34,169 bases of DNA from Saprospiraceae bacterium (GTDB lineage: Bacteria; Bacteroidota; Bacteroidia; Chitinophagales; Saprospiraceae): contig JAHDFX010000037.1 in the NCBI GenBank assembly GCA_020627965.1, positions 2,090 to 36,258 on the forward strand, in the 5' to 3' direction. A program made the translations under genes and the position numbers. How positions within the stretch are numbered: position 1 is the stretch's first letter; every line of letters starts with the position of its first letter. The notes below the pieces were generated by a model. The model made no database searches. It saw only the letters and a program-made list of their open reading frames with translations, and was not told where the DNA came from. This document shows, one piece after another, positions 1 to 23,375 of the stretch.

Positions 1-644
1 ACGAATGGTCGGTTTATCTGATCGACAATACACGTGGTGGCATGAGAATCCAACTAGACCTGTGGACTAAAAAAGTCAATATAGATGGTAAACCTTACTA
101 CACAATCACCAATTCAAAAGTAGTCACCAATGGTACCAATGTAAACTCAGTTAAATTTGACGCCGGACGTACAACAGGGTCATTTGTGCAAACCAGTGCA
201 AAAAAATGGCAGGAATTCAGCGCTGACGGAAGACTAAAATTCAATTTTGACGAAACCCATAGAGACGAATGGTCGGTTTATCTGATCGACAATACACGTG
301 GTGGCATGAGAATCCAACTGGACCTATGGACAAAGAAGGTCAATATAGATGGCAAGCCTTATTATACAATAACAAAAGGTGAAGTCATTACTAATGGTTT
401 GAATGTAAGAACAGTTAACTACATTAATAATGGCAAAAAAGGAAGCTTCCAGCAAAATGGTCAGTGGACTGATAATGATGTAACAGGCAGGAAATGGAAA
501 TTTGAAGAGACAGGCAGAGATCAGTGGTCTGTTTATTTGATCGACAGGTCGAGAGGCGGTATGAGAGTTCAGCTGGATTTACATACAAAGAAAATATCAA
601 TAGATGGCAAGCCTTACTATACCATCACTAATGCAACAACAAAT
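1..644 (+). repeat. In-frame tandem repeat, 264 bp then 255 bp period
   Basis: The first 55 bases of the window recur without a mismatch at 265-319, and a more diverged copy begins at 520. Offsets are 264 bp (88 codons) and 255 bp (85 codons), so the reading frame is kept. The perfect 55 bp match against a looser remainder suggests recent duplication or gene conversion between units. The repeats run off the left edge, so copy number is unknown. Confidence 0.85.
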
Positions 645-647
645 TAA
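1..647 (+). CDS. Beta-rich tandem-repeat protein, 5'-truncated by window edge
   Basis: The reading frame is open from the first bases (codons in phase with base 3) and ends at TAA 645-647, so the true start lies upstream of the window; the ATG at 42 is internal. About 214 residues are visible. They consist of one full and two partial copies of an 85-88 aa repeat whose most constant part is W-S-V-Y-L-I-D followed by R-G-G-M-R and then Q-L-D-L-x-T-K-K, ending with D-G-K-P-Y-Y-T-I-T. The alternating polar/hydrophobic pattern suggests beta strands. I do not recognise a named family with confidence. No catalytic motif, membrane segment or signal peptide is visible in this fragment. It converges on the exported caspase-like gene, with two hairpin terminators between them. 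A binding or structural role is a guess from repeat character only. Confidence 0.8.
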   Translation, partial: EWSVYLIDNTRGGMRIQLDLWTKKVNIDGKPYYTITNSKVVTNGTNVNSVKFDAGRTTGSFVQTSAKKWQEFSADGRLKFNFDETHRDEWSVYLIDNTRGGMRIQLDLWTKKVNIDGKPYYTITKGEVITNGLNVRTVNYINNGKKGSFQQNGQWTDNDVTGRKWKFEETGRDQWSVYLIDRSRGGMRVQLDLHTKKISIDGKPYYTITNATTN

Positions 648-790: not shown

Positions 791-2638
791 TTACTGGCAT
801 TTTTCACTGTCTCGTTTTTCTTGCTTGATGAGCCTGAAACCTAGATCATCACGTTTTACTTTTTCAAATAGTCTTTCTTTATTGGCTATCCTTTGTTCAC
901 GGTTTTTTACATTGACTGCCAGTCCTTTAACAACTATGCCTCCATCAGGTTTAGCGCCTTCTTTTTCTCTGTAAAGTGTAGCAGTCAGTTCGGCTACATT
1001 ACCAGTCATTCCATGTATTCCCTTTTTATTCGCACGACTACTATGAACCTTTTTGATGTCGTAATCAAACTTATTAAAATCACTGGCATGAGCAGCGACT
1101 TCTCTATCACGTGCAGCACATTCCCACTGGGCTTCGGTGGGTAATTTATACTTGTACTCACAATCTTTTGTACTTAGCCAGACGGCAAATCTTCTAGCAC
1201 CAAGATGACTTACATTTACAACAGGTTTTTTTCCTTTTTCTTTTGTTCTGGGCTGAAATTTATCATTGTGCCAAACAATGTCGCTGCTTTTCCCAACATC
1301 TACCCATATCTCAATGCTTTTGTCAGCCGCAGTAATATCATTTAGAAAATCACAGTATTGCTGGTTGGTGACTTCATAAGTCCCCATATCAAAGTCTCCC
1401 ATTGGTTTTGGGCGCTGAAGGACTTCATCGTCTCGTCTTCCCTTTTCTCCTTTAGGGCTACCAATTACACAGTCATCTCCATTGACATAAATAGTAGGAT
1501 AGTAATTGGTTTTGCCCTTAATATTTGAAGTACAAAAACGGTCTATTTTGAAAAATGGAAAATCGCCCAGATCATTTCTGTTTATACTTGGGTTTTGTCG
1601 GTACCCAAGCTCTTCGCATAATTCGGGTACCCGCCATTTAAGATATTGATAAATTTCTCCTGTGGTAATTACTTCGTCCTTGTTTTCATTGGCTTTGCCA
1701 CTTAAGCCTTCTATAAATGCTTCTGTGAAAGCTCCATTCTCCCAAGCTTTATCATAATAAGAACGTTCATTTTCAGAACTTGAAGTGATGATTGTATATC
1801 CACTTTTAGTCGCCGACATCGTTTTTATATGCTCACTAATACTAGGACTGCCACCACCGCTTTTTGCTCCACCAGATTCACAGGCATCAATAAAGATAAG
1901 TTTTTTGGCATCTACATAGTCCAGGCTATCCAATAGGTCTTTGAATCTGATAGAGGTTCCTTTTTTGTCTCCCTCCTTTATATCTGTAGGTTGAAGATAA
2001 AATCCGTCGTCTCTCATATTGCCATGCGAAGAGATAAAGAGCATAAATACATCTATAGGTAAAATATCATTATCCTTAATCATACTATTGAAAGCATCTT
2101 TAATGCCTGTATATCCTGCATCTTTTGCAACAATTTTACGGGAAAAGACCTCTCCATATAGTTTTTCCTCTCCACAGGCCTGCTTTGTAAAAGCCCGATA
2201 TACATCAGTTGCATCATTAACAGTATAGCTAATGTCTGGAGGCGTAGGCCCGATAGATAAGATATGTAAATTAGGGGAAACCCCATTTTTTACGATTAAA
2301 GTACTTGACTTACAAGTTTTTCCTGAAGAGGTCATGACAACCTGAATTCCCATGACACCATTAGGGCTTAATGGTACGTAGTCTATTATTATGTCATCAT
2401 TTCCAATTGTTAATGGTACTTCATCTGATTTTTGATTTTTACGAATATTTTTTCCGTTAACCAAAACCTCAAACTTAGCATCATCTGGAACCCCAAATAC
2501 TTTTAGTTTAATTTTGAGGGGACTTTCGACATTGTATAAAATACCCTTTTTAGCACTGCCAAGCCAGTTAATACAGTCCTGAGCCATACAGGAAATGCTC
2601 ATCAAAAAAGTCAATAGAAATAGCGAAAAGGTTTTCAT
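791..2638 (-). CDS. Exported caspase-like (C14) peptidase with C-terminal FGE-sulfatase-fold domain
   Basis: This 615 aa product starts at the ATG complementary to 2636-2638. That start gives a clear signal peptide (residues 1-20, ending C-M-A-Q); the longer frame back to 2707 runs through an intergenic hairpin and is rejected. Residues 21-120 look like an Ig-type beta domain. Residues about 122-365 form a caspase fold with the probable dyad His205 (F-I-S-S-H-G-N) and Cys253 (F-I-D-A-C-E-S-G-G). Residues about 385-606 resemble an FGE/SUMF1 fold: M-G-T-Y-E-V-T-N-Q-Q-Y, K-L-P-T-E-A-Q-W-E-C-A-A-R, G-M-T-G-N-V-A-E and terminal G-F-R-L. The Cys normally following the G-N-V-W-E-W motif in true FGE enzymes is missing, so this part probably binds rather than catalyses. 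It lies downstream of the papain-like gene on the same strand, probably in one operon. Substrate unknown. Confidence 0.88.
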   Translation of the reverse strand: MKTFSLFLLTFLMSISCMAQDCINWLGSAKKGILYNVESPLKIKLKVFGVPDDAKFEVLVNGKNIRKNQKSDEVPLTIGNDDIIIDYVPLSPNGVMGIQVVMTSSGKTCKSSTLIVKNGVSPNLHILSIGPTPPDISYTVNDATDVYRAFTKQACGEEKLYGEVFSRKIVAKDAGYTGIKDAFNSMIKDNDILPIDVFMLFISSHGNMRDDGFYLQPTDIKEGDKKGTSIRFKDLLDSLDYVDAKKLIFIDACESGGAKSGGGSPSISEHIKTMSATKSGYTIITSSSENERSYYDKAWENGAFTEAFIEGLSGKANENKDEVITTGEIYQYLKWRVPELCEELGYRQNPSINRNDLGDFPFFKIDRFCTSNIKGKTNYYPTIYVNGDDCVIGSPKGEKGRRDDEVLQRPKPMGDFDMGTYEVTNQQYCDFLNDITAADKSIEIWVDVGKSSDIVWHNDKFQPRTKEKGKKPVVNVSHLGARRFAVWLSTKDCEYKYKLPTEAQWECAARDREVAAHASDFNKFDYDIKKVHSSRANKKGIHGMTGNVAELTATLYREKEGAKPDGGIVVKGLAVNVKNREQRIANKERLFEKVKRDDLGFRLIKQEKRDSEKCQ

Positions 2639-2666
2639 TGGTTCAAATTGTTGAAAATGTAATGAA

Positions 2667-2697
2667 GCTTCCTGCTGTTTCAAAAACAACAGGAAGC
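2667..2697. terminator. Long intercistronic hairpin between the two protease genes
   Basis: A 14 bp stem with a single C/A mismatch (2667-2680 with 2684-2697) and a CAA loop lies between the stop of the papain-like gene (2727) and the start of the caspase-like gene (2638). Neither strand has a T-run after it. It could be a partial terminator, an RNA-processing or stability element that sets the protease ratio, or a weak transcriptional stop. Confidence 0.55.
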
Positions 2698-2726
2698 CCA
2701 TATTCATTTGTTCGGATTAGTAGACT

Positions 2727-4238
2727 TTAATTAATAATAACGTCTAGCACTATAGGAACGGCTACTCCTTTATTTGAATTGGCTTTGAAGCCCATGCCGC
2801 TATCGCTGTATATAATGTCTTTAGGAGGAATGAGCAAGTCGCTAAAGCCTTTATTCAGACGCTTCATAAAATTCTTTTCTTCTGAATTACGTACTTCCAT
2901 AATTCGTTCGGTCATATCTTCAATCTCTTCATCCGAATAGATGACACAGATGTGGTCAGTTCCTGGATGAACCGATTGAAGGGCTGTAAATTCACTTGGA
3001 ATAGTCATAGATGATGAAGTGTTTTGTACAATAGTTTTCTTCAATGGAACAATCCGTGCACCATCTAATTTGCTAATATCTACCCCTTTGGGGAAATGTA
3101 ATTCAGCCTTGTTTTTACTATCAATACTGAAAACATAAACATAAGAATTTGGCGACATATTACTGCCTTTTAGCTGATAAACATCCCGTATCCTCCAATC
3201 TGGCAGCACATAGCTACTTCCACTAAATACAGGTACTGCTTCTTTGAAAATAGGGCTATCTGTATCTTCGTCAAAATCGGCAGGAAAGCGAAATGCAAAT
3301 TTACCCTGCAATTCTATTGGTTTCTTTACATCTTTAAGCGTTTTGTCTGCTTTTGCAATGACAGGACTGGCCAACGGAGCCGTTTTTTCTTCGTCAACAA
3401 TAGCAGCATAACCATATTTGGCATACTTAGCATAATCATCATATTTTACCCAGATAAAACCATTGTCGGCCCAATTGGTACCCCAACTATTCATGATCTC
3501 AAAGGCTTTTTTATAATCATTATAACCCACTACGCACATGGAATGTCCACCTTTAGATTCTGGGCTTGCGGCGCTTACATCAAGAAATTTAGTTCCTTTT
3601 TTAGCCAAAAAGAAACTCTCTGGCATGTTCATTCCTATAACCACTGGTCTGCCTTCTGCCAATGCTTTTTTAGTTAAAAATATTTTTTGATCTTCAGTAG
3701 CTCTTTTGTGAAAGATCGTCATATAATCTTTGATTTGATACTTTTGAGCTTTTTTCTTCAACCTGGAGTCAGGCATAATATTGCAACTGGTTACTTTATG
3801 GTCAAATTCATTGGCCAGGCAATCGCCCTGCGTTTTGAGAAGTTTCATCCCATCGGATATTTTAGCACCATTATAGCAACCATCCAATTTAATTTGATTA
3901 AAAATATAAAAAGCTGAAAGTACATTAGTATTACGAACAGCAATATCTTTAACTTCATCTCGCATGGAGAGCATTATCGTTAGGGCATTGCTACAGGAAT
4001 ATCCTACACAGCTACCATCATTACCCTGGCTGCGTGGAGTTGGTGCATAGTCACGCATACTGACTTTTATAGGTAGTTCATCTCCTTTGGCTCCAGGATC
4101 AAAACCTTCTGGCATGGCTTCTTCGGCAGCCCTTTGCTCTGATGCATCAAAGACAGCCCCCATCGGATAAGTCTGGGCACTTAGGCTGTTCAATAAAATA
4201 GTACAAGCAATTAACGTAAGTGAAATGTATTTTTTCAT
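2727..4238 (-). CDS. Exported papain-fold (C1) cysteine protease with DUF4384-like C-terminal region
   Basis: This 503 aa product has a signal peptide at residues 1-21 (M-K-K-Y-I-S-L-T-L-I ... S-A-Q). The papain catalytic set is visible: Gln71 (oxyanion hole, R-S-Q-G-N-D-G-S-C-V-G), Cys77, His232 (G-G-H-S-M-C-V-V-G-Y) and Asn250 (N-S-W-G-T-N-W). The protease domain covers about residues 55-282. There is no classical long inhibitory propeptide; only about 35 residues separate the signal peptide from the domain. Residues about 340-440 carry a beta-rich segment (Y-V-Y-V-F-S-I-D, then I-P-S-E-F, then G-T-D-H-I-C-V-I-Y-S) resembling DUF4384-type modules seen with surface proteases in Bacteroidota; that assignment is from pattern memory. 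It is the first gene of a minus-strand pair with the caspase-like gene and is divergent from a sigma factor gene. Active in periplasm or at the cell surface; substrate unknown. Confidence 0.88.
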   Translation of the reverse strand: MKKYISLTLIACTILLNSLSAQTYPMGAVFDASEQRAAEEAMPEGFDPGAKGDELPIKVSMRDYAPTPRSQGNDGSCVGYSCSNALTIMLSMRDEVKDIAVRNTNVLSAFYIFNQIKLDGCYNGAKISDGMKLLKTQGDCLANEFDHKVTSCNIMPDSRLKKKAQKYQIKDYMTIFHKRATEDQKIFLTKKALAEGRPVVIGMNMPESFFLAKKGTKFLDVSAASPESKGGHSMCVVGYNDYKKAFEIMNSWGTNWADNGFIWVKYDDYAKYAKYGYAAIVDEEKTAPLASPVIAKADKTLKDVKKPIELQGKFAFRFPADFDEDTDSPIFKEAVPVFSGSSYVLPDWRIRDVYQLKGSNMSPNSYVYVFSIDSKNKAELHFPKGVDISKLDGARIVPLKKTIVQNTSSSMTIPSEFTALQSVHPGTDHICVIYSDEEIEDMTERIMEVRNSEEKNFMKRLNKGFSDLLIPPKDIIYSDSGMGFKANSNKGVAVPIVLDVIIN

Positions 4239-4413
4239 AATTTGCTGAATTGAGTAGTCTTTATTATTTTCTTAAAATTGGGACTGAATAAAGTCTATTA
4301 CTAATCAACATCCAGTCCCGCTTTACCGTGTGTCATCTATAAATGCCCATTTTAAAATAATGTGACCTCAATTTTATTTTTTTTTCAAAAATAACCATAT
4401 AACTGGTCACATA
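4239..4413. promoter_or_regulatory. Divergent regulatory region between protease pair and sigma gene
   Basis: The 175 bp gap separates two divergently read transcription units. It holds a perfect 8 bp inverted repeat, ATGTGACC (4360-4367) and GGTCACAT (4405-4412), whose right half ends one base before the sigma ATG at 4414. It also holds a 7 bp inverted repeat GGGACTG/CAGTCCC about 24 bp apart (near 4281-4318), which lies in the leader of the protease transcript. On the minus strand TATTTTTG (complement of 4386-4393) fits the Bacteroidota TAnnTTTG box, without a convincing upstream TTG at the usual distance. These are candidate operators and a candidate promoter, not proven sites. Confidence 0.4.
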
Positions 4414-5247
4414 ATGACTCAAAAAGAATCTATAGTTGTGAAAACATTCAAAACCAGTGAAATTATTGAAGGAATTTCCAAAAACAATCTGGAAGTATTG
4501 GACTGGATATGGCAGACTTATCAACCAGTTGTACAAGCCCATCTGGATAAATTATCCTGGACAAAAAGCGATACCGCTTTGGTTTTCATCCGTACTTATC
4601 AGAAAATTAAACAAAAAATACAGTTTAATACTTATTCTGGGCAAACATCTTTCAGACAAATCTTTGAAGAAAGATTACGTGTAGGTTGGCTCGATACGCT
4701 TTCAGGTTATATGCCGGAGGCCTTATTGAATAACGACAGTCGTGTTATTCGCTTATTTACAAAAGAAATCAGTCCTATTGTCTGGAGTATTACGGAAAAA
4801 TATACTGGCTCTACAGAATCGGCAGAAAAAATATACGCTGAAGCGATCTGGCGGGTGCTGGAAAACATTCAGGCTGGTAAATATGAAGAAACTGGTAGTT
4901 TTAAGAGTTATTTTTTGGCTGTTGTTACGAATGTTTTGCGCAAAAATGTCAGAAAAGTAAAAAGAGAAGTCGCCTTCGAAGATTACCTGACAGATAAACA
5001 GGTAGATGATAGTTTTGATCTGTTTCAGGAACGAGAAGAACGCCTGGTCTTATTAGAAAAATTGCTGCGTCAGGCAGATGAACAATGTACGCAGGTTTTT
5101 GATCTGTTTTACTGGAAAGGACATAGAACCAAAGCTATAGCCCAACTAATCAATGTTTCAGAAGAAAGTGTCAGGGCAAGATTATCACGCTGCCGGAAAA
5201 AGTTAAAAGCAGCCTTCGCTCGTGCGCAACAATATGAAGTATTCTAA
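4414..5247 (+). CDS. Sigma-70 family RNA polymerase sigma factor (ECF-like) with N-terminal extension
   Basis: This 277 aa protein is predicted to direct RNA polymerase to a dedicated promoter set. Residues about 110-182 match sigma region 2 (Y-T-G-S-T-E-S-A-E-K-I-Y, then G-S-F-K-S-Y-F-L-A-V-V-T-N-V-L-R-K). Residues about 207-268 match region 4 with a helix-turn-helix (T-K-A-I-A-Q-L-I-N-V-S-E-E-S-V-R-A-R-L-S-R). ECF factors are usually near 180 aa; the extra ~95 N-terminal residues also look like a degenerate sigma-2 module (I-I-E-G-I-S-K-N-N-L-E-V-L-D, then G-Q-T-S-F-R-Q-I-F-E-E-R-L). The ATG at 4414 immediately follows an inverted repeat. The next gene begins 12 bp after the stop and encodes a one-TM protein, as expected for a sigma/anti-sigma pair. 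The divergent protease genes are plausible targets, but this is inferred from position alone. Confidence 0.88.
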   Translation: MTQKESIVVKTFKTSEIIEGISKNNLEVLDWIWQTYQPVVQAHLDKLSWTKSDTALVFIRTYQKIKQKIQFNTYSGQTSFRQIFEERLRVGWLDTLSGYMPEALLNNDSRVIRLFTKEISPIVWSITEKYTGSTESAEKIYAEAIWRVLENIQAGKYEETGSFKSYFLAVVTNVLRKNVRKVKREVAFEDYLTDKQVDDSFDLFQEREERLVLLEKLLRQADEQCTQVFDLFYWKGHRTKAIAQLINVSEESVRARLSRCRKKLKAAFARAQQYEVF

Positions 5248-5259
5248 ATACTAACTATA

Positions 5260-6048
5260 ATGAAAAATACAGACCTAAATATAATTACTGATGCACTGAA
5301 TAAGCAACTCAATGAACAGGCTATTCAGGAAATTCAACAAAATGCTGACTTGGGTGATGAAATTACATTTGCCAAAGAAATGCATTTTGTTGACCAACAC
5401 AGAGAACAAATTCAGATGCAGGAAACACTTGGCAATATCTTCGCCGATCTTCAAGTAACACCTGATAACACGGAGGTAGATACATTGGTAAAAGAGGGAG
5501 AGATAGAATTCCCCAACAATATTTCAGGTGGCAATAACAAGTTATGGTGGCTAAGCGGAAGTCTCTTAGTCATATTAACCTTAGCAGCTTTATTCTGGAT
5601 ACGCCCTGCGGCAAATACTTTGACAGAGATCCAACGAAATACACTTGAAGTGCTAAGGCCATTAACTCTTATTGTAGGCTTTGACCTAGAGTCAGAAAAA
5701 GATAATTTCAGCCTTGGGTTTGATGCTTATGATAAGGGAGACCATACACTGGCGGTGCCTTATTTAAGTAAGTATATCAATAAAAATCCTAATGACGATC
5801 AGGTACGCCTATATTTGTCCATTAGTCAGCTATTTGCCGGAAATTACCCGGAAAGTTTAGTAAACTTGCAAACACTAGATGCAGGTAAAAACGAATTTAT
5901 AAAAGAACACATCGACTGGTATACAGGCATAGCACATTTGATGAATCATGAAACAGAAGCAGGTATAAATAAACTTAGGGCTATTCAACCCGATAATATT
6001 CATTTTGAGGATGCAGAAACACTGCTAATGCAAATCATAAACCAATAA
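5260..6048 (+). CDS. Single-pass membrane protein with periplasmic TPR-like repeats; candidate anti-sigma/sensor
   Basis: This 262 aa protein has an N-terminal ~94 residues that are acidic, helical and probably cytoplasmic, then one membrane helix at residues about 95-114 (W-W-L-S-G-S-L-L-V-I-L-T-L-A-A-L-F-W-I). The C-terminal ~145 residues contain TPR-like helical hairpins (G-F-D-A-Y-D-K-G-D-H-T-L-A-V-P-Y-L; L-Y-L-S-I-S-Q-L-F-A-G-N-Y). No zinc-binding anti-sigma (ZAS) HxxxCxxC motif is present, so it is not a classical zinc anti-sigma factor. It lies 12 bp after the sigma gene and 4 bp before the next gene, so all three are probably co-transcribed. A role in tethering or sensing for the sigma factor is inferred from order and topology. 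It could instead be a structural envelope protein. Confidence 0.75.
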   Translation: MKNTDLNIITDALNKQLNEQAIQEIQQNADLGDEITFAKEMHFVDQHREQIQMQETLGNIFADLQVTPDNTEVDTLVKEGEIEFPNNISGGNNKLWWLSGSLLVILTLAALFWIRPAANTLTEIQRNTLEVLRPLTLIVGFDLESEKDNFSLGFDAYDKGDHTLAVPYLSKYINKNPNDDQVRLYLSISQLFAGNYPESLVNLQTLDAGKNEFIKEHIDWYTGIAHLMNHETEAGINKLRAIQPDNIHFEDAETLLMQIINQ

Positions 6049-6052
6049 GAAC

Positions 6053-6805
6053 ATGAAGTTTCCTAACCGTGTACAAATAAGTATAATTATTCTCTGTTGT
6101 TGCTTAAATGCTTTGGATACTATTGCTCAAACCATTAGGGTAAGGGCCTCGGATGGGGAATATGCCCGTCATGTATTAATCACCTGGAACAGAACGGATG
6201 ATGCCGCTTCGTACAGAGTATTGCGTAGTGTGCAGAATATTCCCGAAGACAGAAAAGTTATTGCCGACTGGCAAACCAAAGCTGCACCTATATGGATGGA
6301 TGCAGAAGCCAAACCGGGGATGAAGTACTATTATAGTGTCGAGGTATTATATCATTCTGGCAAAAAGATCATGAGTAAGTCAGATATAGGATACCGTGAA
6401 GCCATGACAGATATGGCAACAGAAGAAGAGCTTTTGAGTTATGAAGAAGTCATGGCAAATCCGCAACGAGAGGTTTCCTTGAAAGATACTGTGCTGATGT
6501 CGCGTCCTGAAATAATTGTAACATCGAAGCCACGAAAAGAGCTTAATATTCGTATTGTTCTATATAATATCGGTGTTCAGCATGTCAAAAACGCCAGCAT
6601 CAGCTATTATTTGTCCGAAGACGACCTCTGGGATACAGAAGATACATTTTTAATAGAAAAAGAAGCAATAGATATTATGGGTCGGGCAGACCCTATTGTT
6701 GTTGAACAAAATGAAAAGGCACCAGATACAACAGCTAAATATCTAATTGCAATATTAAAACATCAAAATGAAATAAAAGCAGTGACACACACATTGATAC
6801 GATGA
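6053..6805 (+). CDS. Exported protein with FnIII-like and CARDB-like beta domains
   Basis: This 250 aa product has a signal peptide at residues 1-26 (hydrophobic I-S-I-I-I-L-C-C-C-L-N-A-L, ending T-I-A-Q). Residues about 27-114 fit a fibronectin type III-like strand pattern (V-L-I-T-W-N, A-A-S-Y-R-V-L-R-S, K-Y-Y-Y-S-V-E-V). Residues about 160-250 resemble a CARDB-like adhesion fold (N-I-R-I-V-L-Y-N-I-G, then Y-L-S-E-D-D-L-W-D-T-E-D-T). No catalytic residues are evident. It begins 4 bp after the TPR-like membrane gene, so it is the third gene of the sigma operon. It may be an extracytoplasmic interaction partner of that membrane protein, or simply a surface protein made with it. Domain names are from strand pattern and are tentative. 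Confidence 0.75.
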   Translation: MKFPNRVQISIIILCCCLNALDTIAQTIRVRASDGEYARHVLITWNRTDDAASYRVLRSVQNIPEDRKVIADWQTKAAPIWMDAEAKPGMKYYYSVEVLYHSGKKIMSKSDIGYREAMTDMATEEELLSYEEVMANPQREVSLKDTVLMSRPEIIVTSKPRKELNIRIVLYNIGVQHVKNASISYYLSEDDLWDTEDTFLIEKEAIDIMGRADPIVVEQNEKAPDTTAKYLIAILKHQNEIKAVTHTLIR

Positions 6806-6810
6806 AAGAA

Positions 6811-6974
6811 TAATAGTTGCGTTATCCGCAATAGTCGATAGTCCATGGTCGATGGTCCATAGTTGTTTTTTAGTTTAAAAGCTATTTCATTTTGCTTTGC
6901 AAAATGCATGATAAAAACAACCATGGACTATCGACCATCGACCATTGACAAATTGCGGCTTTCCGCAATTATAG
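6811..6974. repeat. ~165 bp near-perfect intergenic palindrome (MITE/REP-like)
   Basis: Arms 6826-6870 and 6913-6958 are reverse complements over about 45 bp with roughly six differences. They are built from repeats of words such as GTCGATGGTCCATAG. Each outer end carries its own small hairpin (TTGCG/CGCAA at 6817-6831; a perfect AATTGCGG/CCGCAATT stem with a CTTT loop at 6951-6970). The centre holds a perfect CATTTTGC/GCAAAATG hairpin (6888-6906). It fills the gap between the sigma operon and the giant adhesin gene. It could terminate the upstream operon, or be a nonautonomous mobile or REP-type element. No transposase is nearby. Confidence 0.85.
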
Positions 6975-6998
6975 CTTAACTATTCAGATAAACACACT

Positions 6999-9900
6999 AT
7001 GTCCAAAACTAAGCGAACTCAGAAACAGAGGTATCTGGTATTATTGTTATGCCTGTACCTGATGGGAAGTCATGCCACAGCCCAGACAAGAATGGATGAT
7101 TCTTTGTCTTTAGTCGAATTGTATAATACGACCGATGGTCCGAACTGGACGATTACATGGGATTTGAACCAACCTATGGATGACTGGTTTGGCGTGTTTT
7201 TGACGAATGGAAGGGTAACTTGCCTGGATTTGGACGGTAATGAGGATTGTTCTTCACCTGTCGCAAGTAATAATAATTTAGTGGGTGATCTCCCGAATTT
7301 GAATCTTACTGAACTGCAAACATTAACTCTTACTTCCTATCAATTAAGCGGCAACATTCCTGACTTTTCTAATTTGCCCAATTTACAATTCCTTCGACTA
7401 TTTTCTAGTCAATTAAGCGGTAATATTCCTGATTTTTCCAATTTACCTAATTTACAAGAACTTTCACTTGGGAATAATCAATTAAGCGGCAGCATTCCTG
7501 ATTTTTCCAATTTACCTAATTTACAAATCCTTCGGCTTGGGAATAATCAATTAAGCGGCAACATTCCTGATTTTTCCAATTTACCTAATTTACAAGAACT
7601 TTCACTTGTCAGAAATCAATTAAGTGGCAATATGCCGGACTTTACTAATTTGCCTAATTTAATAAACCTTGCGGTTCCCAATAATCAATTAAATGGTAAT
7701 ATGCCGGACTTTAGCGATAACTGTCCTAATTTAGTATACCTTCAGTATTTTGAAAACAGATATACTTTCGATGGAATTATATCCACAATTGCACAAAATG
7801 AAACGCTAGTTATCGTTCATCACTATGCCCCCCAAGATTCAATAGGTACAGAACAAACTACTTTTATCAATCAAGGCGACAATTACACCATAGATTTGAT
7901 AGTAGACGACACCGTTACCACAAGCACTTATCAGTGGTATAAAGACGGCACAGCCTACACCACAACCACAACCAATGAACTCAACTTCACCAATCTACAG
8001 CCCAGTGATGCAGGTACTTATACTTGTGAAGTAACGAATCCTTATGCGCCGGAACTGACTTTGTATACTTATCCACATACACTAGTTGTGAATCCTTCTT
8101 CATTCAGCATCAATTGTTCTCAAGCCTTACCCGCTACGAACTCCGACGGAGAAGCTAATATCAATCTATCTGGCGGCTTAGCACCTTATGAAATCACTTG
8201 GATTGGGCCAAGTTCTGGAAACATAACAGGAGCTAATGATGGTGATAATCTCATTGGAAGCCTATCTATTGGAACTTATACCTTTACAGTTACGGATGCT
8301 GATGGCTTTAATGAAACTTGTGAAGTAACAATTAGCTCCATTTGTAATGCAAATATGGGGACTATTAATTTTACCAATGGAAATAACGCTTCCAATTACA
8401 TCGCAGCATTACCCAGTATCTTAATCAGTGATGAAGTATTTGCCAGTGATGTAAACGCTAATGACGCTGCGGATGCTTTAAATGACAATTGGGAATCTGC
8501 TATATCTAATAACTGTTCGGGGCTTTTCTCTCTTACTTACGGAACCATTAATGCTCCTGTTGATGGTATTGGAGGAACGATTTCTGATTTATTTTTACCC
8601 GATGGTTCTGCATATGGTGGCACCGTGACTTATGAATTGGTTAATGTATCTGACCCGGCCAATCCGGCAACTTATATGACAAATACAGGTAGTCAAGGCA
8701 GTATTAATGGAATAGATATAGGTTTTGTAATTCCCTTGAATAATAGTTTACAAGATGATGCACCGGCGCCTACTTCTCTTAATGGAACATTTTATTGGAC
8801 TGAAAGCTTAGGAGGCACTGCTAGTCGGAATGGAGTTAGATTCTGTTTCTCTGACCCGCTGGAAAATTTTGGGGCTTTTTTCGGCGATCTGGAAACGGGA
8901 AACCTGCCTGCCGAAGTCGTTTTATTGGATGCAGGAGATGGAATCATAACGGCTATGAGTATACCCACAATCACTGCTGATCCTGCAGACTGTGGAAATT
9001 GCGGCACCGGAGGAGCTGCTAGTAACAATAATAACTTTGAAGGCTGTGGAAATAAGGGTACACGCTGGATAGGCTTTGAAGGCTACACTACAACTCCCGT
9101 ATCTTGTATGGTCGTGATTGTTGGCGATGATGATGCATTTACAGGCTGCGCACCAGATTGTGTAACCGGATGTGTACCTGACGATGGCAATTCAGAACAT
9201 CTCAGCTTTGGCGGGGCATCTGCTGGTGGCTTTTGTGTAATTTGTACTGATCTGTGTGAAGGCGCCCCTTTGATTCATACCACAACAGGCTCTACGGATG
9301 AAACAAATCCGGATTATAGTAAGATATATATTCTGGCAGATAATGCAGGCACAATTATCACCACCAGCAATGATGGGGATTTTACGTCTAGTATAGCGAA
9401 TGTAACAGTTTGTACAGAATATCGTGTTCATACTCTAGTCTATAATTCGGCTAATCCACCCACCGAAATTACATCCCTAATCGTGGGTAATAATATTAAT
9501 ATTATAAATGACGGTTGTTTCAACCCAGACTTTCAAACCAATTATGGTTGTTATAATGTATGTCCTGCTCCAGAAGTGGTGATTACACCTATTACCACCC
9601 CCAACTGCGCAACAGGTGCCGACGGATCCGTAGAAATTACCATTAACAATGGTGTACCACCTTATAATGTTATAAACACTGGTACAGGAATAATAACGCC
9701 GTTTTCAGTAAACACGAATGGAGGAACAACTACTATCACGGGACTCACAGATGGTAATATGTACAGCTTCGATATAGAAGACGTAAATTTATGCATAGAG
9801 AGTTTCGCAGGACAAACCTTTGAATGTGTATCATTGGCTTCTGGCTGCCAAAACACGAATGATGTATTTATTCCGGAAAGTGAAATAGTAACCAGTGGTA

Positions 9901-12900
9901 TAGTAAATTCAGGTTCAGCAGGAATTATAGGGACGGGGACAGAAATACTTAGTGTTTGTGTTTTAATAGAACATCCTTTCATAGGAGACCTCATATTAAC
10001 GCTCATTGCCCCTGATGGAAACAATATCTTATTAAGTGCAAATAATGGAACAGACTTTAATTATGGAGATGTAACACTTGGTACAGAAGTATGTTTTACA
10101 CCAACTGCGACTAATGATATTACAGCCTATGCAGGAGGTCAGACAGGAGATTGGCTGCCGGAAGAACCAACAGGTTTCACCAGTCTCGGTGGCGTAATCC
10201 CAAATGGAACATGGCTGCTACAAGTTTTCGATAATGCGGCATTAGATACTGGTACTCTTCTGTCCTGGTCTATAGAATTTGATAATGGTGACTGTTCAAC
10301 ATCAATAGCCTGTGATGTGACTTTAGATGTGGGAAGTGTTACCTGTCCAGGAGATAGCGATGGAACACTATTTATCGAAATACTTAATCCGGGTACAGGC
10401 CCCTGGACGACAACGTGGACAGACGGTGCAGGCGCTTCACTGGGTCCTGATATAGAGGTTTTACTGCCTACAGTAATTAATACTCCCACCTATCTCATTA
10501 CAGGACTTCCCGAGGGGCAATACGTCCTAACCATTATGGGAGGAAACTGTAGTGGTGGACTTTTTGGAGACTCAACACCCGTCACAACAATCAGTGCTAA
10601 CACTCCTCTTTTAGAAACCTTTATAGACCCGGCAATTACTACACCTGTTACCTGTAATGGTGGTACTGACGGAGTAGCCGAGACCTCACCCGTAGGGGGA
10701 GTCGGATCGTATTCTTATTTATGGGATAATAACGAAACCTCCAATGTTGCAACAGCTCTCAATGCAGGGATACACACTGTAACAGTAACTGATACTAATG
10801 GCTGTACAGCTACAAATTCAGTAACCATAACTGAACCAGCTCCACTATCAGCTATCATAAGCTCCACACCTGAAAGCTGTTCAGGCAATGATGGAACAGC
10901 AAGCGTCTCAGCAACAGGCGAATCCGGTACCTATACCTATCAATGGGATGCTGCTACAGGAAGTCAAACAACGCCTACGGCTACCAATCTTACAGCAGGC
11001 ACTTATTTTGTTACAGTTACAGATGCCGCCTGTGGAAGTATTGCCGAACCTGTAGTCGTTGATTCTGCTTGTAATTGTAATATTATTGATGCCACTATCA
11101 ATGTCAGCCCATGCAATGATAATGGAACGCCTAATGACCCTACAGACGACTATTTTAATTTCACCATAGAAGATATTATTCAGGGTGATCCTACCTTCTC
11201 AAACGGCTTTACCTTTGATGGTACTATAGTGAGTCCAACAGACCTAAGTGCCAATGAAACGGCGGGCTATGGTGCAGGCGTTCAATATACTTCACCTGAT
11301 ATTATCATTGAGGATGCTCAAGGTGGTACAGTTACATTGACTTTAGCTGACCTAGTCGAATCTACCTGTATTTTACTGGCAGACCTTACTATACCAGCTA
11401 CTTGCCCTTGTGTAGATAGTACGCCTCCTTCTATTAACTGCCCTGCAGGTGTTACGCAGCCTACAGATCCAGGGGAATGTTTTGCCATGCCTGATACATG
11501 GTTGCCCATACCCGGTTTTACGGACGACTGCGGTCCTATTAGTATTTCTAATAATCAGCCATCTGTGTTTAACCTGGGAACAACATTTATTACTTACGTT
11601 GTTACAGATGCTGTGGGCAATGAGACTACCTGTAGTTATCCTATAACAATCATAGATGACGAAGCCCCTATTCTCGACTGCTCGGCACTTGGACTCATAT
11701 TACCGGCTGATCCGGCTACCTGTTCCTATATTGCAGTAGGATCAGATTTCGATCCTATTGCTAGTGATAATTGTAATGCTACTTTAGTCAATGATCTGAA
11801 TAGTACAGCGACACTTGATAATGAAGCTTTTCCGATAGGAACAACCACAGTAGTATGGACACTAACAGATGATGCAGGCAATGCTGTTTCTTGTTCTGTA
11901 GATTATGAAATCCAGGACAGTGAGCCTCCTGTTATTACTAATTGCCCTGGTACTACCATCGAAATTGCGAGCCTCCCTGACTGCGAAGCCAATGTAGCAG
12001 TAATGCCTTTGCTTGCAACAGATTGCCAGTCCTTCACCATAACAAATGATTATAACAATACATCCGATGCTTCTGATATTTACCCAGAAGGAACAACAAC
12101 AGTCATCTGGACAGTCACAGATGCCAGTGGTAATAATGCAACATGCTCTACTGATATAGTTGTAGAGTCGGGTTTATTCGCCAGTGCTACTTCAGTAGAT
12201 GAATCCTGTGCTGGTAATGATGGTAGCATAGATTTAACCGTTACAGGTGGTACTCCGCCATATATTTACAATTGGACTAATGGACAAATAGTAGAAGATA
12301 TTTTAAATTTATCGGCAGGCACTTACTCCGTTTTAGTGGTAGATGCTAATGATTGTGAAACAGGTGTATCAATTTTAGTAAATTCAACCTGTGATTGTCC
12401 GTCTGGTAATTTTGTTAATGATCCTTCCGGTTTTGCTCCAATATGTACAGAAAATCTCACCAATGAATTAACTGACTGGCAAACTGTTGTAGCGTTAACA
12501 AATCCTCTTGATGCAGCACAAGATCCACTAGGAACGGGAAGCATTGTTTATTCTACAACACTAGATGATGCTTCTGGTACATGGACGCCAGATGGTGATC
12601 TATCTGGCATAAACGGAAATCATTCTGGTGCCGACATATGCCTTATTGAAGAACAAATCATTTATGCTTATTTAGCCTGCAATGGAAATACACCCGGAAA
12701 TACCACAGATGATACTTATGAACTTGTCGGCGAATTTATTTTACAAATATGGCCATTCCCTGATGTTACATCTAATGTAACAGGATGCACTGGCGAGGTG
12801 ATAAATTCATGCCCGGATGGAATTCCTGAGTACAGCACAGATGGTGGAGCCACTTTCGCACAGACACCTCCAAGTCTTAATCCAGGTGATCCAGACTTAA

Positions 12901-15900
12901 TTGTAAACTGGCAGGTAGCTCTTCCCGGTGCTCCTGAAGGATGTGCAGCAACAGGTTCTTATACTTTAAGCTGCCCTTGTTTCCTCGTCTGGGAAACTCC
13001 CGTCATCGACTTTACGCCATTATGCAACGGCGATTGTACTGGCGAGGCAACGGTGTTCGCTACAGGCGGAACGGCACCATATAATTATCAATGGGATAAT
13101 GGAGATATGAATCAATCTGCAAATAATTTATGCGCAGGAACCTACGAAGTAACTATTACAGATGATACTGGCTGTATAGTTACCGGAGAGGTCATCATAA
13201 ACGAGCCCGACTTTCCTTTCCTTAATCTTGATGTAGTGAATGAAACCTGTGCCGGCAATGATGGTAGCATAGATTTAACCGTCACCGGAGGCACACCTCC
13301 ATATAACTATATCTGGAATACAGGTGCCACTACACAAGACCTTACTGATTTATCGGAAGGTACTTACGCCGTTACTGTTGGAGATATTAATGGATGTACT
13401 TTGTCATCTAATGCTACAGTAGTTTCAGATTGTAACTGCAATGCTGATGCAGGTACAATAACAACCAGTACGGGTTCAAATACAATAAGCCTTTGTGTAG
13501 GAGAGTCTTTTTCGCTCATTTCAAATAATGATTATACCCTGCCACCGCCTCAAACAGGAGAAGTGTCAGAGTTGGTATATGCTCTTTACAACTGTCCGCC
13601 ACCAGCTAGCCTAGACCCGCTTTTACCTGATCCTTGTTTTTCAGGATGGTTCTGGGCAGAAGAAGACTTTTTATCCGGAGATGATGGGGCAATTAATGAA
13701 GGAGGAATACCCGATGCCTTTACTACATTGGGTATAACTGGAACAAATAATACGATTTGGTGGTTACCGATCACAATAGACGATGGAAATGGTAGCATTG
13801 CTATGCCTAACGATCCTGATGGCATAGTAGATATTGACCAAAATAATGATGGTTGCTATGCGACAGGAACACCCATAGAAGTTACTTATCACCCTGATAT
13901 AACTGTTGATTTTGTCAGTACTTGCGATCCAGTCTCAGAAATGGGGAATTATACCATTACTATATCCGGCGGACTGGGACCAGACTATACGATCAATAAT
14001 ATCGGAGATGGTACGATTTCAGGTTCGCTTATTACAGTGGATGGAGGTTCTTTTAATATAGATGTATTAAATGGCGATGTCATCGAATTTACAGTAACAG
14101 ACGGAGGAGGATGTACTTATGGGCCATATGCAGAGATATTTGTATGTCAGAGCAATCCTTGCCTGGTTGATGCTGAACTGACAGCAAACCCTCCTCTTTC
14201 AGATTTTCCGAATGGGGAATACCCACCAAATACAACGGTGGAGTTTTGTATCAATATTAACGAATACACTCAGACATCTTTCAATTTTCTGCATGGTATT
14301 GTTCCAAGTTTTGGCGGTAGCTGGACAGGTACAATAACTCCAACGGCAAATCCAATGGTAGCAGGAAATAATGAAATCGGTTCACAATGGGCATGGTTTC
14401 CCGGTAATACAATAACCTATAACACAACAGGAAATTTCATCACTGATGAAGGATGGTGGTTTCAAAGTACTAGTTCTCCTGCCTATACAGGGGGAAATAT
14501 CGGCGCCCTTGACCCCAATGACAGTTGGGGCGATGGTTGTACACGCCCTTGCTATCAAACAACTCAGGCTATTTGTGATAGTACGCCTAATGGTGTATGG
14601 AATGTAGATTGTGGAGGATGTGCAGGCGATCCTGTTTTATCTGTGGGGCCAGTAGGGGCTGGGGCTGATATTGAAGATAATGCTATGGGTCAGACTTTAT
14701 GTGAATCGCAGTCCGGTGTATGGGATGCGGCCAATGGTTATTGCGTCTTTCAGGGTATTTGCGAAATGGGAGTTGGACTGACCTGGGAAGCTTGTTTCAC
14801 TTTGACTACATTAGATGAAACAGCCTGTGCCACAAATCAATCATTAGATGTTTCGGTAATGGTATACGGGGATGGCGAAACCGGAGCCTGGGGATTTGGA
14901 GGATGTGTTCTTGATGCGCCTGTGGAATGGACTGGTGAAATGTCAACTGGATCAGGTAATGCACCTGTCATTGATCAACCAGCCAACCCCAATATCTGTT
15001 TTGGTGAATTAGTTACTTCTACGGCTGTATCTGCTAATGCCCTGCCAACATTGGAATACGTCGTAACCGACCCTAATACACCAGCTACTGATGGCTGGGG
15101 AGATTTGATATTGGGCAGCGCTCCGATGGGTACGTTTGATCCTGTAGTTGATTTTGGATTATCTGCTGGTGACCCTTTCTGTGTTACTGCGGTTCAATAT
15201 GATCTTGAACAAATACAGTCAATAACAGATAGCATTCTGATGGGTTCTATTTCACCATCTCTTACCTGTTGTGATCTGGCAGCACAGAACATTCCGGCTT
15301 TTTGTACAATTTTGCAAGGCATTGGTATTAATTCAGGTTCAGATATTGAGGATTTGAATGATGTACATATGGTTCTACAACTATTCAGCCCTGGTACAAG
15401 CTTCTCTATTCAAGGCATCATATATCAAATCGATACGATCAATATGAATTTAGCGCTTCTTCCAGATACTTGCGGGGGAGGTTTACTACCTATCTGTTAT
15501 ACTGCGGATGTGGCGGAACAGGCCTGTTACACAGTTGCACCTTTACCTGTTGCTGGTACAAATACTACTTCCGAAAGTTGTGCAGGAAATGATGGAAATG
15601 CTTCAGTATTACCCAGTGGAGGAACTCCTCCGTATTTATATCTATGGGATGCAGCAACAGGAAATCAAACAACTCAAACAGCTATTGATCTTACAGCTGG
15701 TATTTATACTGCTACTATAACAGACGATAATGGATGTACAGCAACAATTGATGTAGAAATAGAAGAAATTGATCCTTTAATAACCAATCCAAGTCCTGAT
15801 ACAGATATTTGTGAAACAGAAACAACAACTATATCCGTCAATCCTACAGGCGGCTCAGGCAGTTATATTTACAATTGGGATAATGGATTAGCCCCGAACG

Positions 15901-18557: not shown

Positions 18558-19568
18558 ATGAAAAAAACACTAGCCACTATTATAATTACACTCAGTATTT
18601 TTGCGAGCCTGAGAAGTCAGCAATTACCGAAATATAGCTTCTTTGAGGATAATATGAGTGCTATAAATCCAGCATTACCCCGAACGGAATTTATGTACGA
18701 GGATTATTCTTTCTTCCTCAATGCTACTTATCGAAATCAATGGGTTGGCTTCGAACATGCGCCAAAGACTTTTCTTTTTCAGGCAGGTACCTGGCTTCCC
18801 GACTGGAGTGCAAATAATTTTTTCCAGATGTTGGGAAATACACAGGCAGGACTAGACATCGTCCATGATGAAACCGGGCCTTTTTCTTTTTCTGGTGTAT
18901 ATGGACGCCTTGGACACTTGATTTATCTCAACGAAAGTGAAAGAACATTTATATCAGGAGGGCTCAGCGTAGGTCTTAATATGCAGCGTATAAAACTGGA
19001 AGTATTATCTCCAGCCGCCCAGGCCGATCCCTATCTTCAGGGTTTATCTACTGGCACCAGTATGCTGCCAGATGCAGGAGCAGGTATAGCTTTTGCCCAT
19101 TATTTTGTAAAAGAAGGCTATCATTTTGACGACAGTCAGGGCATCTATTTTGGGGTCTCTGTACCCCAGGTACTTGGACTTAACGTTAGGTATCGACAAG
19201 AAGACGGAACGCTGGATATTCCGAGGGTTCGCCATTACAATGCTGTGTTGGGTGGACAAATTGGTCCCGAATCAGATAATTTCAGGTTCAGACCTACTTT
19301 TATTTATAAATATGTTCCTAAGGGACTGGATTATTATGGAGGAAGTATAGACCTCCTTCTTAAAAAAAGAGTTATTGTCGGTTTTGGTGCTAATTCCAAT
19401 CCAGCCATCTCAGGAAGAGCTGGTTTTTATATTCCAATGGAGGGGCCCGATAGCTCTGATAAGGCAGCTTTACGCGTTGGTTTTAATTATACCTGGCAAA
19501 TGAATGATGAAAATCTGGGAAGTGTACTGGAATTTACCGCTACTTACATGATTGATTATCAAAATTAG
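18558..19568 (+). CDS. PorP/SprF family type IX secretion-associated outer-membrane protein
   Basis: This 336 aa product has a signal peptide at about residues 1-20 (M-K-K-T-L-A-T-I-I-I-T-L-S-I-F-A) and an outer-membrane beta-barrel pattern of the PorP/SprF family. Typical features are the early N-M-S-A-I-N-P-A segment after Y-S-F-F-E-D, the Y-R-N-Q-W-V-G-F motif and the many amphipathic strands ending in F-T-A-T-Y-M-I-D-Y. Length fits the family (about 300-350 aa). In Flavobacterium johnsoniae SprF is needed to bring SprB to the surface, and such genes commonly follow large SprB-like or CHU_C-tailed genes. Here it starts 12 bp after the giant adhesin, so the pair is probably co-transcribed and dedicated. 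The exact mechanical role of SprF-like proteins is not settled. Confidence 0.92.
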   Translation: MKKTLATIIITLSIFASLRSQQLPKYSFFEDNMSAINPALPRTEFMYEDYSFFLNATYRNQWVGFEHAPKTFLFQAGTWLPDWSANNFFQMLGNTQAGLDIVHDETGPFSFSGVYGRLGHLIYLNESERTFISGGLSVGLNMQRIKLEVLSPAAQADPYLQGLSTGTSMLPDAGAGIAFAHYFVKEGYHFDDSQGIYFGVSVPQVLGLNVRYRQEDGTLDIPRVRHYNAVLGGQIGPESDNFRFRPTFIYKYVPKGLDYYGGSIDLLLKKRVIVGFGANSNPAISGRAGFYIPMEGPDSSDKAALRVGFNYTWQMNDENLGSVLEFTATYMIDYQN

Positions 19569-22214: not shown

Positions 22215-22715
22215 TTAGTTTACTTTCGCTTTTACTTTGCTGGAAATATCTGTAGAAGGATCTGCATATAAGATTACACTGGAATCCAGAATAAATTTGT
22301 ACCCACTCTCTTTAGCTATAGCATCTACAGCCGACTGGAAATCGGAAAGTAGTGGACGCATCAAACTTTCTTCTTTTTCAATGATTTTTGACTGTGCTTC
22401 TCTTCTTTCTTTATCAATCGCAAGTGCTTCTTTCTGAATCTCTGCACTGAGCGCATTAATATCGTTTTGTGTCATACTGCCACTGGCAGCACGTTTTTCA
22501 CCGTCTTGTATCTTTTGTTGTAATCTTGTTTCCTTTGCTATAATAGCATCACTGAGTTGCTTGGCATAAGTTTCTGCCTGGCTTTTAGCAGCCTGTGTAG
22601 ATGCCATGCCTGCAAATATTTCTTGTGAGTTCATATAACCGACCTGCGCTTGTGAAACGATAGCGACTAAGCAAAACAAGGCGATTAACCCACTTATTTT
22701 TGATGTAAAATTCAT
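22215..22715 (-). CDS. OmpH/Skp family periplasmic chaperone, paralog 3
   Basis: This 166 aa product has a signal peptide at about residues 1-23 (ending V-S-Q-A-Q), then the OmpH start V-G-Y-M-N-S-Q-E-I-F, a long charged coiled-coil hairpin (about 45-120), and the closing strand G-Y-K-F-I-L-D-S-S-V-I-L-Y-A-D. Skp-type proteins bind unfolded outer-membrane proteins in the periplasm and pass them to BamA. It is closer to the paralog at 22804-23322 (shared M-T-Q-N and D-S-S-x-x-L-Y-A motifs) than to the one next to bamA, so it probably arose by local duplication. A palindromic 88 bp gap separates it from that paralog; murI follows after 7 bp. Confidence 0.92.
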   Translation of the reverse strand: MNFTSKISGLIALFCLVAIVSQAQVGYMNSQEIFAGMASTQAAKSQAETYAKQLSDAIIAKETRLQQKIQDGEKRAASGSMTQNDINALSAEIQKEALAIDKERREAQSKIIEKEESLMRPLLSDFQSAVDAIAKESGYKFILDSSVILYADPSTDISSKVKAKVN

Positions 22716-22737
22716 AATTATTTATGTTGTTTAGATG

Positions 22738-22806
22738 TATTAAGTAATTGAATTGATCGAGTAATTAAGTCATAGTCTCACTTAACATACTCAATATACT
22801 TAATTA
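22738..22806. repeat. Intergenic imperfect palindrome of TTAAGTA/ATTGA-type words
   Basis: A left arm 22738-22770 and a right arm 22780-22806 are imperfect reverse complements. Shared words are ATTAAGTA, ATTGA and TTAAGT, with a few small gaps, around a loop of roughly nine bases. It lies between two skp paralogs and overlaps the stop codon of the upstream one (22804-22806). It may act as an intercistronic hairpin. Its architecture matches the palindromes at 6811-6974 and 28973-29060, although the sequence differs. Confidence 0.6.
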
Positions 22807-23322
22807 CATACCCAATTTTGCTTTAACTAATGCAGTTACATCTTCAGCATCTTCGGCATATAAAAGTGCACTTGAATCTATAATGAAGTTATAACCATTT
22901 TCCTTAGCAACGGCTTCTATGGCTTCATTAAGAGAGGTTACCAGTGGCTCCATCAGATTTTCTTCTCTTTCTACCAGTTTTTGCATCATCTGCTGTCTGG
23001 TTTTTTCCAACTCTGCACCCTGCTTTTGAATTTCTGCCTGAACATTCTGTAATTCATTTTGTGTCATTTCTCCGGAAGTATACTTTTTCTCTGCACTTTC
23101 TATTTTCTTGGCCAGTTGTTCTTCTCTCGATTTGAAATCACTTTCCAATTGTTTTGTATAATTTTCCAACTGACTCTTAGCTGCTTTTGTTTTAGGCATT
23201 TCAGCGAAAACTACTCCGGAGTTCATATGTCCGATCTTTTGGGCTGTAATGTCACTTGCTGCAAAACATATCAAAGCGAACACCAATACACCCCATTTCG
23301 TTATTAATGATTTGTAATTCAT
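22804..23322 (-). CDS. OmpH/Skp family periplasmic chaperone, paralog 2
   Basis: This 172 aa product has a signal peptide at about residues 1-28 (ending D-I-T-A-Q), then K-I-G-H-M-N-S-G-V-V-F, a long Lys/Glu/Gln-rich coiled coil (about 45-130) and the conserved end G-Y-N-F-I-I-D-S-S-A-L-L-Y-A-E. Length and layout fit the OmpH/Skp family. It is the middle of three skp-like genes read in the same direction downstream of bamA. Its stop codon lies inside an imperfect palindrome, which may attenuate expression of the next skp-like gene and murI. Confidence 0.92.
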   Translation of the reverse strand: MNYKSLITKWGVLVFALICFAASDITAQKIGHMNSGVVFAEMPKTKAAKSQLENYTKQLESDFKSREEQLAKKIESAEKKYTSGEMTQNELQNVQAEIQKQGAELEKTRQQMMQKLVEREENLMEPLVTSLNEAIEAVAKENGYNFIIDSSALLYAEDAEDVTALVKAKLGM

Positions 23323-23375
23323 GATTTTAATATTATTGTCTAATTAAAAATGGCTTTTGTAATATTATTAATAGA

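Follow-up and report, generated by a model that had tools for sequence, protein, structure and literature searches.

Organisation of the locus

The window analysed here is a stretch of 34,169 nucleotides from a Saprospiraceae bacterium (assembly GCA_020627965.1, contig JAHDFX010000037.1, positions 2,090 to 36,258 of the forward strand), the genome of which comprises 6.43 Mb on 409 contigs. Near its left end, a papain-family protease and a caspase-fold protease, both exported-looking, are encoded on one strand. Divergent from them lie the genes of an extracytoplasmic function (ECF) sigma factor, a membrane protein with tetratricopeptide repeats (TPR) and a third, exported-looking protein (Table 1). 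Related genes extend past position 6805 up to 19568 and encode a giant surface protein of the type IX secretion system (T9SS) and a PorP/SprF-family protein. The papain gene and its company in related bacteria are the subject of this report.

A previous account drawn from the DNA letters (the sequence-only reading) had described five of these genes. All five open reading frames (ORFs) were found where it had placed them, with the spacers of 12 and 4 bp that it had given, and the ORFs and Pfam matches bear out its picture of two exported-looking proteases on one strand facing the sigma, TPR and third genes. This gene set was correct but incomplete, as the FGE domain of the caspase protein, the giant T9SS protein, PorP, the link to CHAT proteases and a second sigma region 2 had been overlooked. 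ORFs were called from ATG starts only, the local search profiles derive from the window plus a small number of relatives, and signal peptides were assessed by hydropathy and by eye.

Table 1. Features of the locus, with positions numbered from the first letter of the window
Feature	Position	Strand	Basis and remarks
Protein of similar ~80-residue repeats	3–647		Convergent with the caspase gene; no Pfam family above cut-off
Caspase-fold (C14) cysteine protease, exported-looking, with C-terminal FGE-sulfatase-like domain	791–2638	(-)	ORF and Pfam; longer ORF 791–2707, 638 aa
Hairpin of 16 pairs with weak T tail	2699–2665	(-)	Consensus scan; between the papain stop and the probable caspase start
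Papain-family (C1) protease, exported-looking, with DUF4384-like C-terminal region	2727–4238	(-)	503 aa; ORF and Pfam
Divergent intergenic region, papain versus sigma gene	4239–4413		Gap between ORFs
ECF-type sigma factor	4414–5247	(+)	277 aa; region 2 at residues 120–184, region 4 at 214–264; Pfam
Putative anti-sigma factor	5260–6048	(+)	262 aa; N-terminal domain 3–64, membrane stretch ~94–115, TPR domain 146–262
Exported-looking protein of no recognised family	6053–6805	(+)	250 aa; ORF
Giant protein of the cell surface; SprB repeats, leucine-rich repeats and type-B T9SS sorting domain	6999–18545	(+)	3848 aa; ORF
PorP/SprF-family outer-membrane protein	18558–19568	(+)	PF11751, 110.9 bits; TIGR03519, 122 bits (cut-off 90.55)

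The papain and caspase proteases

The papain protein matches Peptidase_C1 (PF00112) with 49.5 bits (cut-off 20.7), and its catalytic residues Q71, C77, H232 and N250 are invariant in all 13 aligned sequences. Sequence comparison at 0.001 yields 36 solved relatives, including 3ois at 1.5e-14. The match of its C-terminal part to DUF4384 scores 18.8 bits, below the cut-off of 27.

The caspase protein matches both Peptidase_C14 (PF00656, 50.9 bits, cut-off 21.4) and FGE-sulfatase (PF03781, 88.3 bits, cut-off 23.3), and has no solved relative by sequence at 0.001. For its translation, 2638 (MKTFSLF..., signal-peptide-like) is a more likely start than 2707, because the latter would place 23 residues ahead of the hydrophobic signal. 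Numbered from the 2638 start, the catalytic dyad is H205/C253. Of 48 caspase proteins, 47 have both catalytic motifs, that of the window among them, with 45 recognised via the alignment and two more on re-reading; in the exception (L215, 11304–13013), the frame stops just past the catalytic His. The partner domains of the caspase differ between relatives, being FGE, PQQ_2 or TPR. A crude hydropathy rule, applied to the 29 adjacent pairs, flags a signal-peptide-like start in 26 of the papains and 25 of the caspases. The hairpin between the two genes is a possible attenuator. A second caspase-FGE gene of the genome (G000:C224, L142) encodes a protein 51% identical over its length, and its neighbours encode a subtilase with leucine-rich repeats and a protein with an SprB repeat. 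To our knowledge, caspase-fold and papain-like proteases are abundant in these bacteria, and their targets are mostly not known.

The sigma factor and its membrane partner

The sigma factor matches Sigma70_r2 with 25.7 bits (cut-off 24), r4_2 with 32 bits (cut-off 25.7) and the NCBIfam model sigma70-ECF with 78.3 bits (cut-off 42.9), and it has the regions 2 and 4 without region 3 that mark an ECF sigma factor. Given alone, residues 10–95 score 24.9 bits against the region 2 part of the profile built from relatives, which indicates that a degenerate second region 2 (within 4414–4700) precedes the normal one in tandem. Sigma relatives that adjoin TPR genes are mostly 184–201 aa long, and the second region 2 was not seen in those of about 190 aa. 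In the structural model the N-terminal part consists of helices with a pLDDT of about 51–75, and many VIA matches spanning it have a root-mean-square deviation (rmsd) near 14; as the model is weak in this part, the assignment rests on the profile match.

The protein encoded next to it is probably an anti-sigma factor, with its N-terminal domain in the cytoplasm and its TPR domain in the periplasm. Pfam gives no match for it at 0.001 (TPR on the window protein alone scores 17.4 bits, below the cut-off of 25). The model (mean pLDDT 82.2) has a confident N-terminal helical domain, and the membrane stretch is helical too; the TPR domain that follows (residues 146–262) matches the solved TPR domain 2xev with a Z of 15.3 and an rmsd of 2.0 over 116 aligned residues. 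The Foldseek and VIA matches of the model are taken up by the TPR domain, and the N-terminal 64 residues are barely probed by them. In many of 58 homologues, basic residues stand directly before the transmembrane stretch, a pattern that places the N-terminus inside and is weak in the window protein. The zf-HC2 domain, which occurs in zinc anti-sigma factors, was found by Pfam in 5 of 45 family members, and several members show an H-x3-C-x2-C motif, which we take to be the zinc anti-sigma motif; no such motif was visible by eye in the window protein. The domain matches, the basic residues and the modelled domains support the pairing of a sigma factor with a membrane anti-sigma partner that the sequence-only reading had proposed.

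The third protein and the giant T9SS pair

The third divergent protein had been labelled FnIII/CARDB-like by eye, a label that could not be confirmed, since the protein matches no Pfam family at E 0.1.

The giant protein contains SprB (412 bits), CHU_C (56.9 bits) and LRR_4 (52.8 bits) domains and reaches 38.8 bits with the type-B sorting-domain model TIGR04131 (cut-off 35). Its gene is directly followed by the PorP/SprF gene, and the T9SS ring protein GldK, which was the T9SS core part searched, is present in the genome (572 bits, cut-off 350). The sorting domain, the adjacent PorP gene and a T9SS gene in the genome are together what is expected of a type-B cargo with a PorP-like partner, and the PorP/SprF protein is the probable partner of the giant. 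In Flavobacterium and Porphyromonas, a PorP-like protein holds type-B cargo at the cell surface, and the complex of cargo and PorP forms without PorU (PMC9143113). PMC7463736 describes the T9SS as a Bacteroidetes-specific system.

Neighbourhoods of the papain gene in relatives

Named genomes were scanned with a papain alignment, and the best 80 of 357 relatives were kept. Three of these 80 loci lacked a full papain, and the 77 full papains fall into 58 groups at 70% identity. The tree and the neighbour counts comprise 79 papain rows with a range of six genes; because of their shared ancestry, the rows do not count as independent trials.

A caspase gene lies within six genes of the papain gene in 35 of the 79 rows, with 12 state changes on the tree, and follows it directly in 29 of these 35. 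The sigma/TPR pair occurs within the same range in 17 rows with nine state changes, and so does not derive from a single inheritance. In all 17 rows it lies upstream of the papain gene, on the same strand in 12 and on the other strand in 5. Counted by papain group, a caspase gene lies at most two genes downstream in 17 of 58 and within six genes in 22; the sigma and TPR genes are present in 11 groups, one of which is a loose call (L204, an exported TPR protein), leaving 10 of 58.

Chance tests were made on 15 whole-genome papain loci, the window included. The caspase is found in 9 of them against an expectation of 0.48 (P 1e-10), and the sigma/TPR pair in 5 against 0.41 (P 4e-5). Like the expectations given below for CHAT, both tests assume evenly spread genes and take their densities from first-look candidate counts, which may under-count distant TPR and caspase homologues, so that the expectations are possibly too low.

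The order of the genes recurs in several forms. On one strand, the succession sigma, TPR, two further genes, papain, caspase, giant and PorP occurs in L205, L210 and L211, and from the TPR gene on in L214, which begins at a contig edge; these four loci are near relatives of one another. L217 has the same one-strand order and stops at the caspase gene, again at a contig edge. The order sigma, TPR, papain, caspase and giant is found in L220, and sigma, TPR and papain in L187, L188 and L219. Other genes stand between the sigma/TPR pair and the papain gene in L208, L218, L222 and L245, and the pair is encoded on the strand opposite the papain gene in L199, L226, L229 and L233. Papain, caspase, giant and PorP genes with no sigma pair in view occur in L195, L196, L221 (the culturable Flavilitoribacter nigricans DSM 23189), L227 and L232, as well as in L192 and L200, where few or no upstream genes are covered. 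The gene that follows the 29 adjacent papain-caspase pairs encodes a T9SS sorting-domain protein in 9 cases, a protein of more than 1000 aa in 3, PorP in 2 and another protein in 14, and one pair is followed by a contig end. Four such giants served to build the sorting-domain profile, which gives too low a count of T9SS cargo.

The papain of the window belongs to a clade of 9 rows (support 95/89), 7 of which have the sigma pair; the other two are L128, from the same genus, and L228, which begins at a contig end. Homologues of the 6053–6805 protein, searched with a profile built from the proteins of the window, L132 and L146, lie near the papain gene in 5 of the 9 rows of this clade, one of them the window, and near no papain gene of the 70 other rows.

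Papain-caspase tandems are also present in three Proteobacteria (L240, L257 and L263; Tropicibacter, Aestuariivita and Halomonas). Their caspase proteins are about 1615 aa long, and the two that were scanned (L240 and L263) carry TPR, OmpA, propeller and caspase domains. Given the described restriction of the T9SS to Bacteroidetes, these tandems, with their OmpA and propeller domains in the two scanned, fit a periplasmic pair that does not need a T9SS. A further papain relative, L247, lies on a contig labelled as a Klebsiella pneumoniae metagenome-assembled genome and groups with Bacteroidota rows on the tree; it is probably a mislabelled bin.

CHAT proteases beside sigma/TPR pairs

Neighbourhoods were also collected from the side of the TPR and the sigma genes. 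The TPR-anchored sample took 40 of 82 matches, and one locus (L169) had no recognised TPR ORF, which leaves 39. No papain and no caspase gene was found near these 39 TPR genes, because the papain-linked TPR loci (the window, G022:C8 and G053:C67) lay outside the sample. G053:C15, likewise outside it, has sigma and TPR genes and no papain. The sigma-anchored sample took the best 40 of a longer list, leaving out loci sampled earlier, and seven were dropped as their anchor ORF had been missed, leaving 33. The sigma gene lies directly upstream of the TPR gene in 34 of the 39 TPR-anchored loci. In the sigma-anchored loci, the next gene encodes a recognised TPR protein in 19 of 33, and a caspase gene is near in one.

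A second kind of exported-looking protease, of the CHAT family, recurs beside sigma/TPR pairs of this type. A CHAT gene lies within five genes in 13 of the 39 TPR-anchored loci (expected 1.1, P 2e-11) and in 13 of the 33 sigma-anchored loci (expected 0.87, P 3e-13); the remaining 26 and 20 loci have none within this range. Ten large neighbours, chosen by size and hydrophobic ends, were examined with Pfam: seven are TPR-CHAT proteins, six of which were flagged for a signal-peptide-like start, one is TonB-dependent receptor-like, and two carry the T9SS sorting domain Por_Secre_tail. The window genome, with 11 CHAT matches, is one of 68 among 100 genomes that have at least one.

Neighbouring features of the window

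Between the 6053–6805 gene and the giant gene, a palindromic dispersed repeat lies within 6806–6998. Allowing at most three mismatches, a 23-base core of it is matched in the genome 46 times in forward and 66 times in reverse orientation; the control is matched 0 times in either. A gene for a MutS-domain-V protein (19584–21374, Pfam) immediately follows the PorP gene. Further on (22215–26821), three consecutive OmpH/Skp-like genes adjoin an Omp85/POTRA (BamA-like) gene.

Relation to known systems

The Craspase/CASP system of type III-E CRISPR comprises Cas7-11, the TPR-CHAT protease Csx29, Csx30 and CASP-sigma, and Csx29 cuts Csx30 (PMC10028731). Both there and in the window, a caspase-fold protease is linked genetically with an ECF sigma factor and with the inhibitor of that factor, in the window a putative one (PMC10028731). 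In contrast, the proteases of the window are exported-looking and are a papain and a C14 protease instead of a CHAT protease, and the putative inhibitor spans the membrane. A Pfam scan of 18 window ORFs found no Cas family; Cas7-11 and Csx29, by which Craspase is recognised, are not seen there.

Caspase systems that carry EACC domains also include ECF sigma and TPR genes (PMC8195603). In the EACC2-caspase conflict systems the TPR genes are of the DUF1822 type, whereas the window has no DUF1822 match and its proteases are exported-looking. With NF047832, the EACC1-type caspase model and the EACC model used, the caspase of the window scores 65 bits and does not reach the cut-off of 140. PADLOC gave 0 matches for the five proteins (5/5) at 0.001, and so no known anti-phage defence system.

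SprB-SprF and PG1035-PorP likewise have a PorP-like gene immediately after that of a type-B sorting-domain protein (PMC9143113); the word caspase does not occur in that paper, in which papain and anti-sigma factors were not looked for. An ECF sigma factor is linked to the T9SS in the PorXY-SigP system of Porphyromonas gingivalis (PMC7712824), but SigP works with a two-component system, whereas the window has a membrane TPR protein as anti-sigma candidate. The fusion of caspase and FGE is likewise known, from 33 metacaspase-FGE sequences that also include Haliscomenobacter (PMC3501461), a text in which the word papain does not occur. ECF/anti-sigma-linked envelope modules are a known kind of system. 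For the present gene combination, no description was found in the open-licence literature among the matches listed, neither of a papain-caspase-sigma-T9SS cluster nor of CHAT beside TPR anti-sigma pairs.

A possible envelope module and its alternatives

The reading that we prefer, with a probability of roughly 0.47, is that of an ECF-switched envelope module around an exported papain, recurrent in Saprospirales and joined in the window by a caspase, a giant type-B T9SS protein and a PorP/SprF protein. Going by what is known of these protein families, the membrane TPR protein, with its cytoplasmic domain, single transmembrane helix and periplasmic TPR sensor, would hold the ECF sigma factor. 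The sigma factor would be released when an envelope condition is sensed by the TPR domain in the periplasm, and would then transcribe its own operon, the papain gene (with the caspase gene where present) and possibly the giant gene. More tentatively, the papain might activate or mature the caspase, and the pair might trim or clear the giant protein or stalled periplasmic export intermediates.

Several observations weigh against this module. Only 8 of 79 rows combine the sigma pair and the caspase in the papain's neighbourhood, and independence would give 17 x 35 / 79 = 7.5; the papain is therefore the hub, to which the sigma factor and the caspase are each tied. The caspase alone accompanies the papain in 27 rows and the sigma pair alone in 9. 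At least six upstream genes are covered in 17 of the 27 caspase-only rows, one of which (L209) has a TPR gene at the contig edge, so contig ends explain only part of the lack of a sigma pair, which is mostly real. The sequence-only reading, in which a protease relay triggered by surface stress or contact is conjectured, holds in part. It requires the families to be neighbours in relatives: papain and caspase, and papain and the sigma/TPR pair, often are, but the three together are no more frequent than independence predicts, and loci that unite all five families, like that of the window, are a minority. In the same-genus genome G003 (L128), which holds the nearest papain-caspase/FGE relative, no sigma or TPR gene is found among the six nearest upstream genes; eight upstream genes are covered there, and downstream the contig reaches no further than the caspase gene. 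No promoter motif, searched as hexamer pairs with spacers of 14–19 bp, could be shown to be shared upstream of the sigma, papain and giant genes. The hexamer-pair comparisons were no better than eight shuffled controls per gene pair, and the zero-mismatch pairs of the sigma and papain genes are A/T runs, with one of eight controls also reaching zero. Moreover, the window genome has 37 type-B sorting-domain and 19 PorP-family matches; giant and PorP pairs are thus common there, and the membership of this one rests on its recurrence beside papain-caspase genes in relatives. The dispersed repeat at 6806–6998 may also break the transcript before the giant gene.

The same observations bear on the alternatives. 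With a lower though still appreciable probability, the papain and caspase would form a self-contained periplasmic device for proteolysis, cell death or conflict, the targets of the sigma factor would lie elsewhere, and regulator and surface protein would merely be near in some Saprospirales. This would account for the 27 of 35 caspase-linked rows in which no sigma pair was seen, for the pairs in Proteobacteria (L240, L263) and Paraflavitalea (L259) that have no match to sigma, TPR or sorting domain in view, and for the varied partner domains of the caspase (FGE, PQQ_2 and TPR, with OmpA and a propeller in Proteobacteria). It fits poorly with the recurrent and always upstream position of the sigma pair, and a conflict device finds no echo in PADLOC. 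A mere meeting of neighbours is very improbable. The relatives are distant and none was seen with exactly the arrangement of the window, yet the enrichment of both papain-caspase and papain-sigma neighbourhoods and the conserved gene order make chance unlikely for these two links; the 6053–6805 protein and the giant are the least secure members.

A bolder and also unlikely reading is that the proteases act on the switch itself. The papain-caspase pair here, and CHAT elsewhere, would cut the periplasmic TPR domain as a site-1 protease and so free the sigma factor, in a membrane-spanning, RNA-independent analogue of Craspase. Such a role would explain why CHAT stands beside the sigma/TPR pair in 13 of 39 and 13 of 33 loci, far above expectation, and why seven of ten large neighbours are TPR-CHAT proteins, six with signal-peptide-like starts. 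L205, L210, L211 and L217 combine CHAT, sigma, TPR, papain and caspase, and the cleavage of the sigma inhibitor Csx30 by the TPR-CHAT protease Csx29 is a precedent (PMC10028731). On the other hand, most loci (26 of 39 and 20 of 33) have no CHAT within five genes, the sigma pair and the caspase are not associated beyond their shared papain (8/79), and T9SS cargo also adjoins some pairs (sorting-domain profile in 3 of 39; Por_Secre_tail in L153 and L180). Gene order alone cannot tell this cutting of the anti-sigma factor from the envelope module. In its general form, which we regard as slightly less likely still, CHAT or papain, with or without caspase, would serve throughout Saprospirales as site-1 proteases for TPR anti-sigma factors, giving each genome parallel envelope-to-gene switches: a periplasmic counterpart of Craspase, wired in the window to one giant T9SS protein.

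Exported-looking proteases of several kinds stand repeatedly beside the same type of sigma/anti-sigma pair, and this offers a readout as well as candidates for regulators and for a substrate. Should the giant protein be handled by the papain-caspase pair, there would be dedicated proteases for type-B T9SS cargo.

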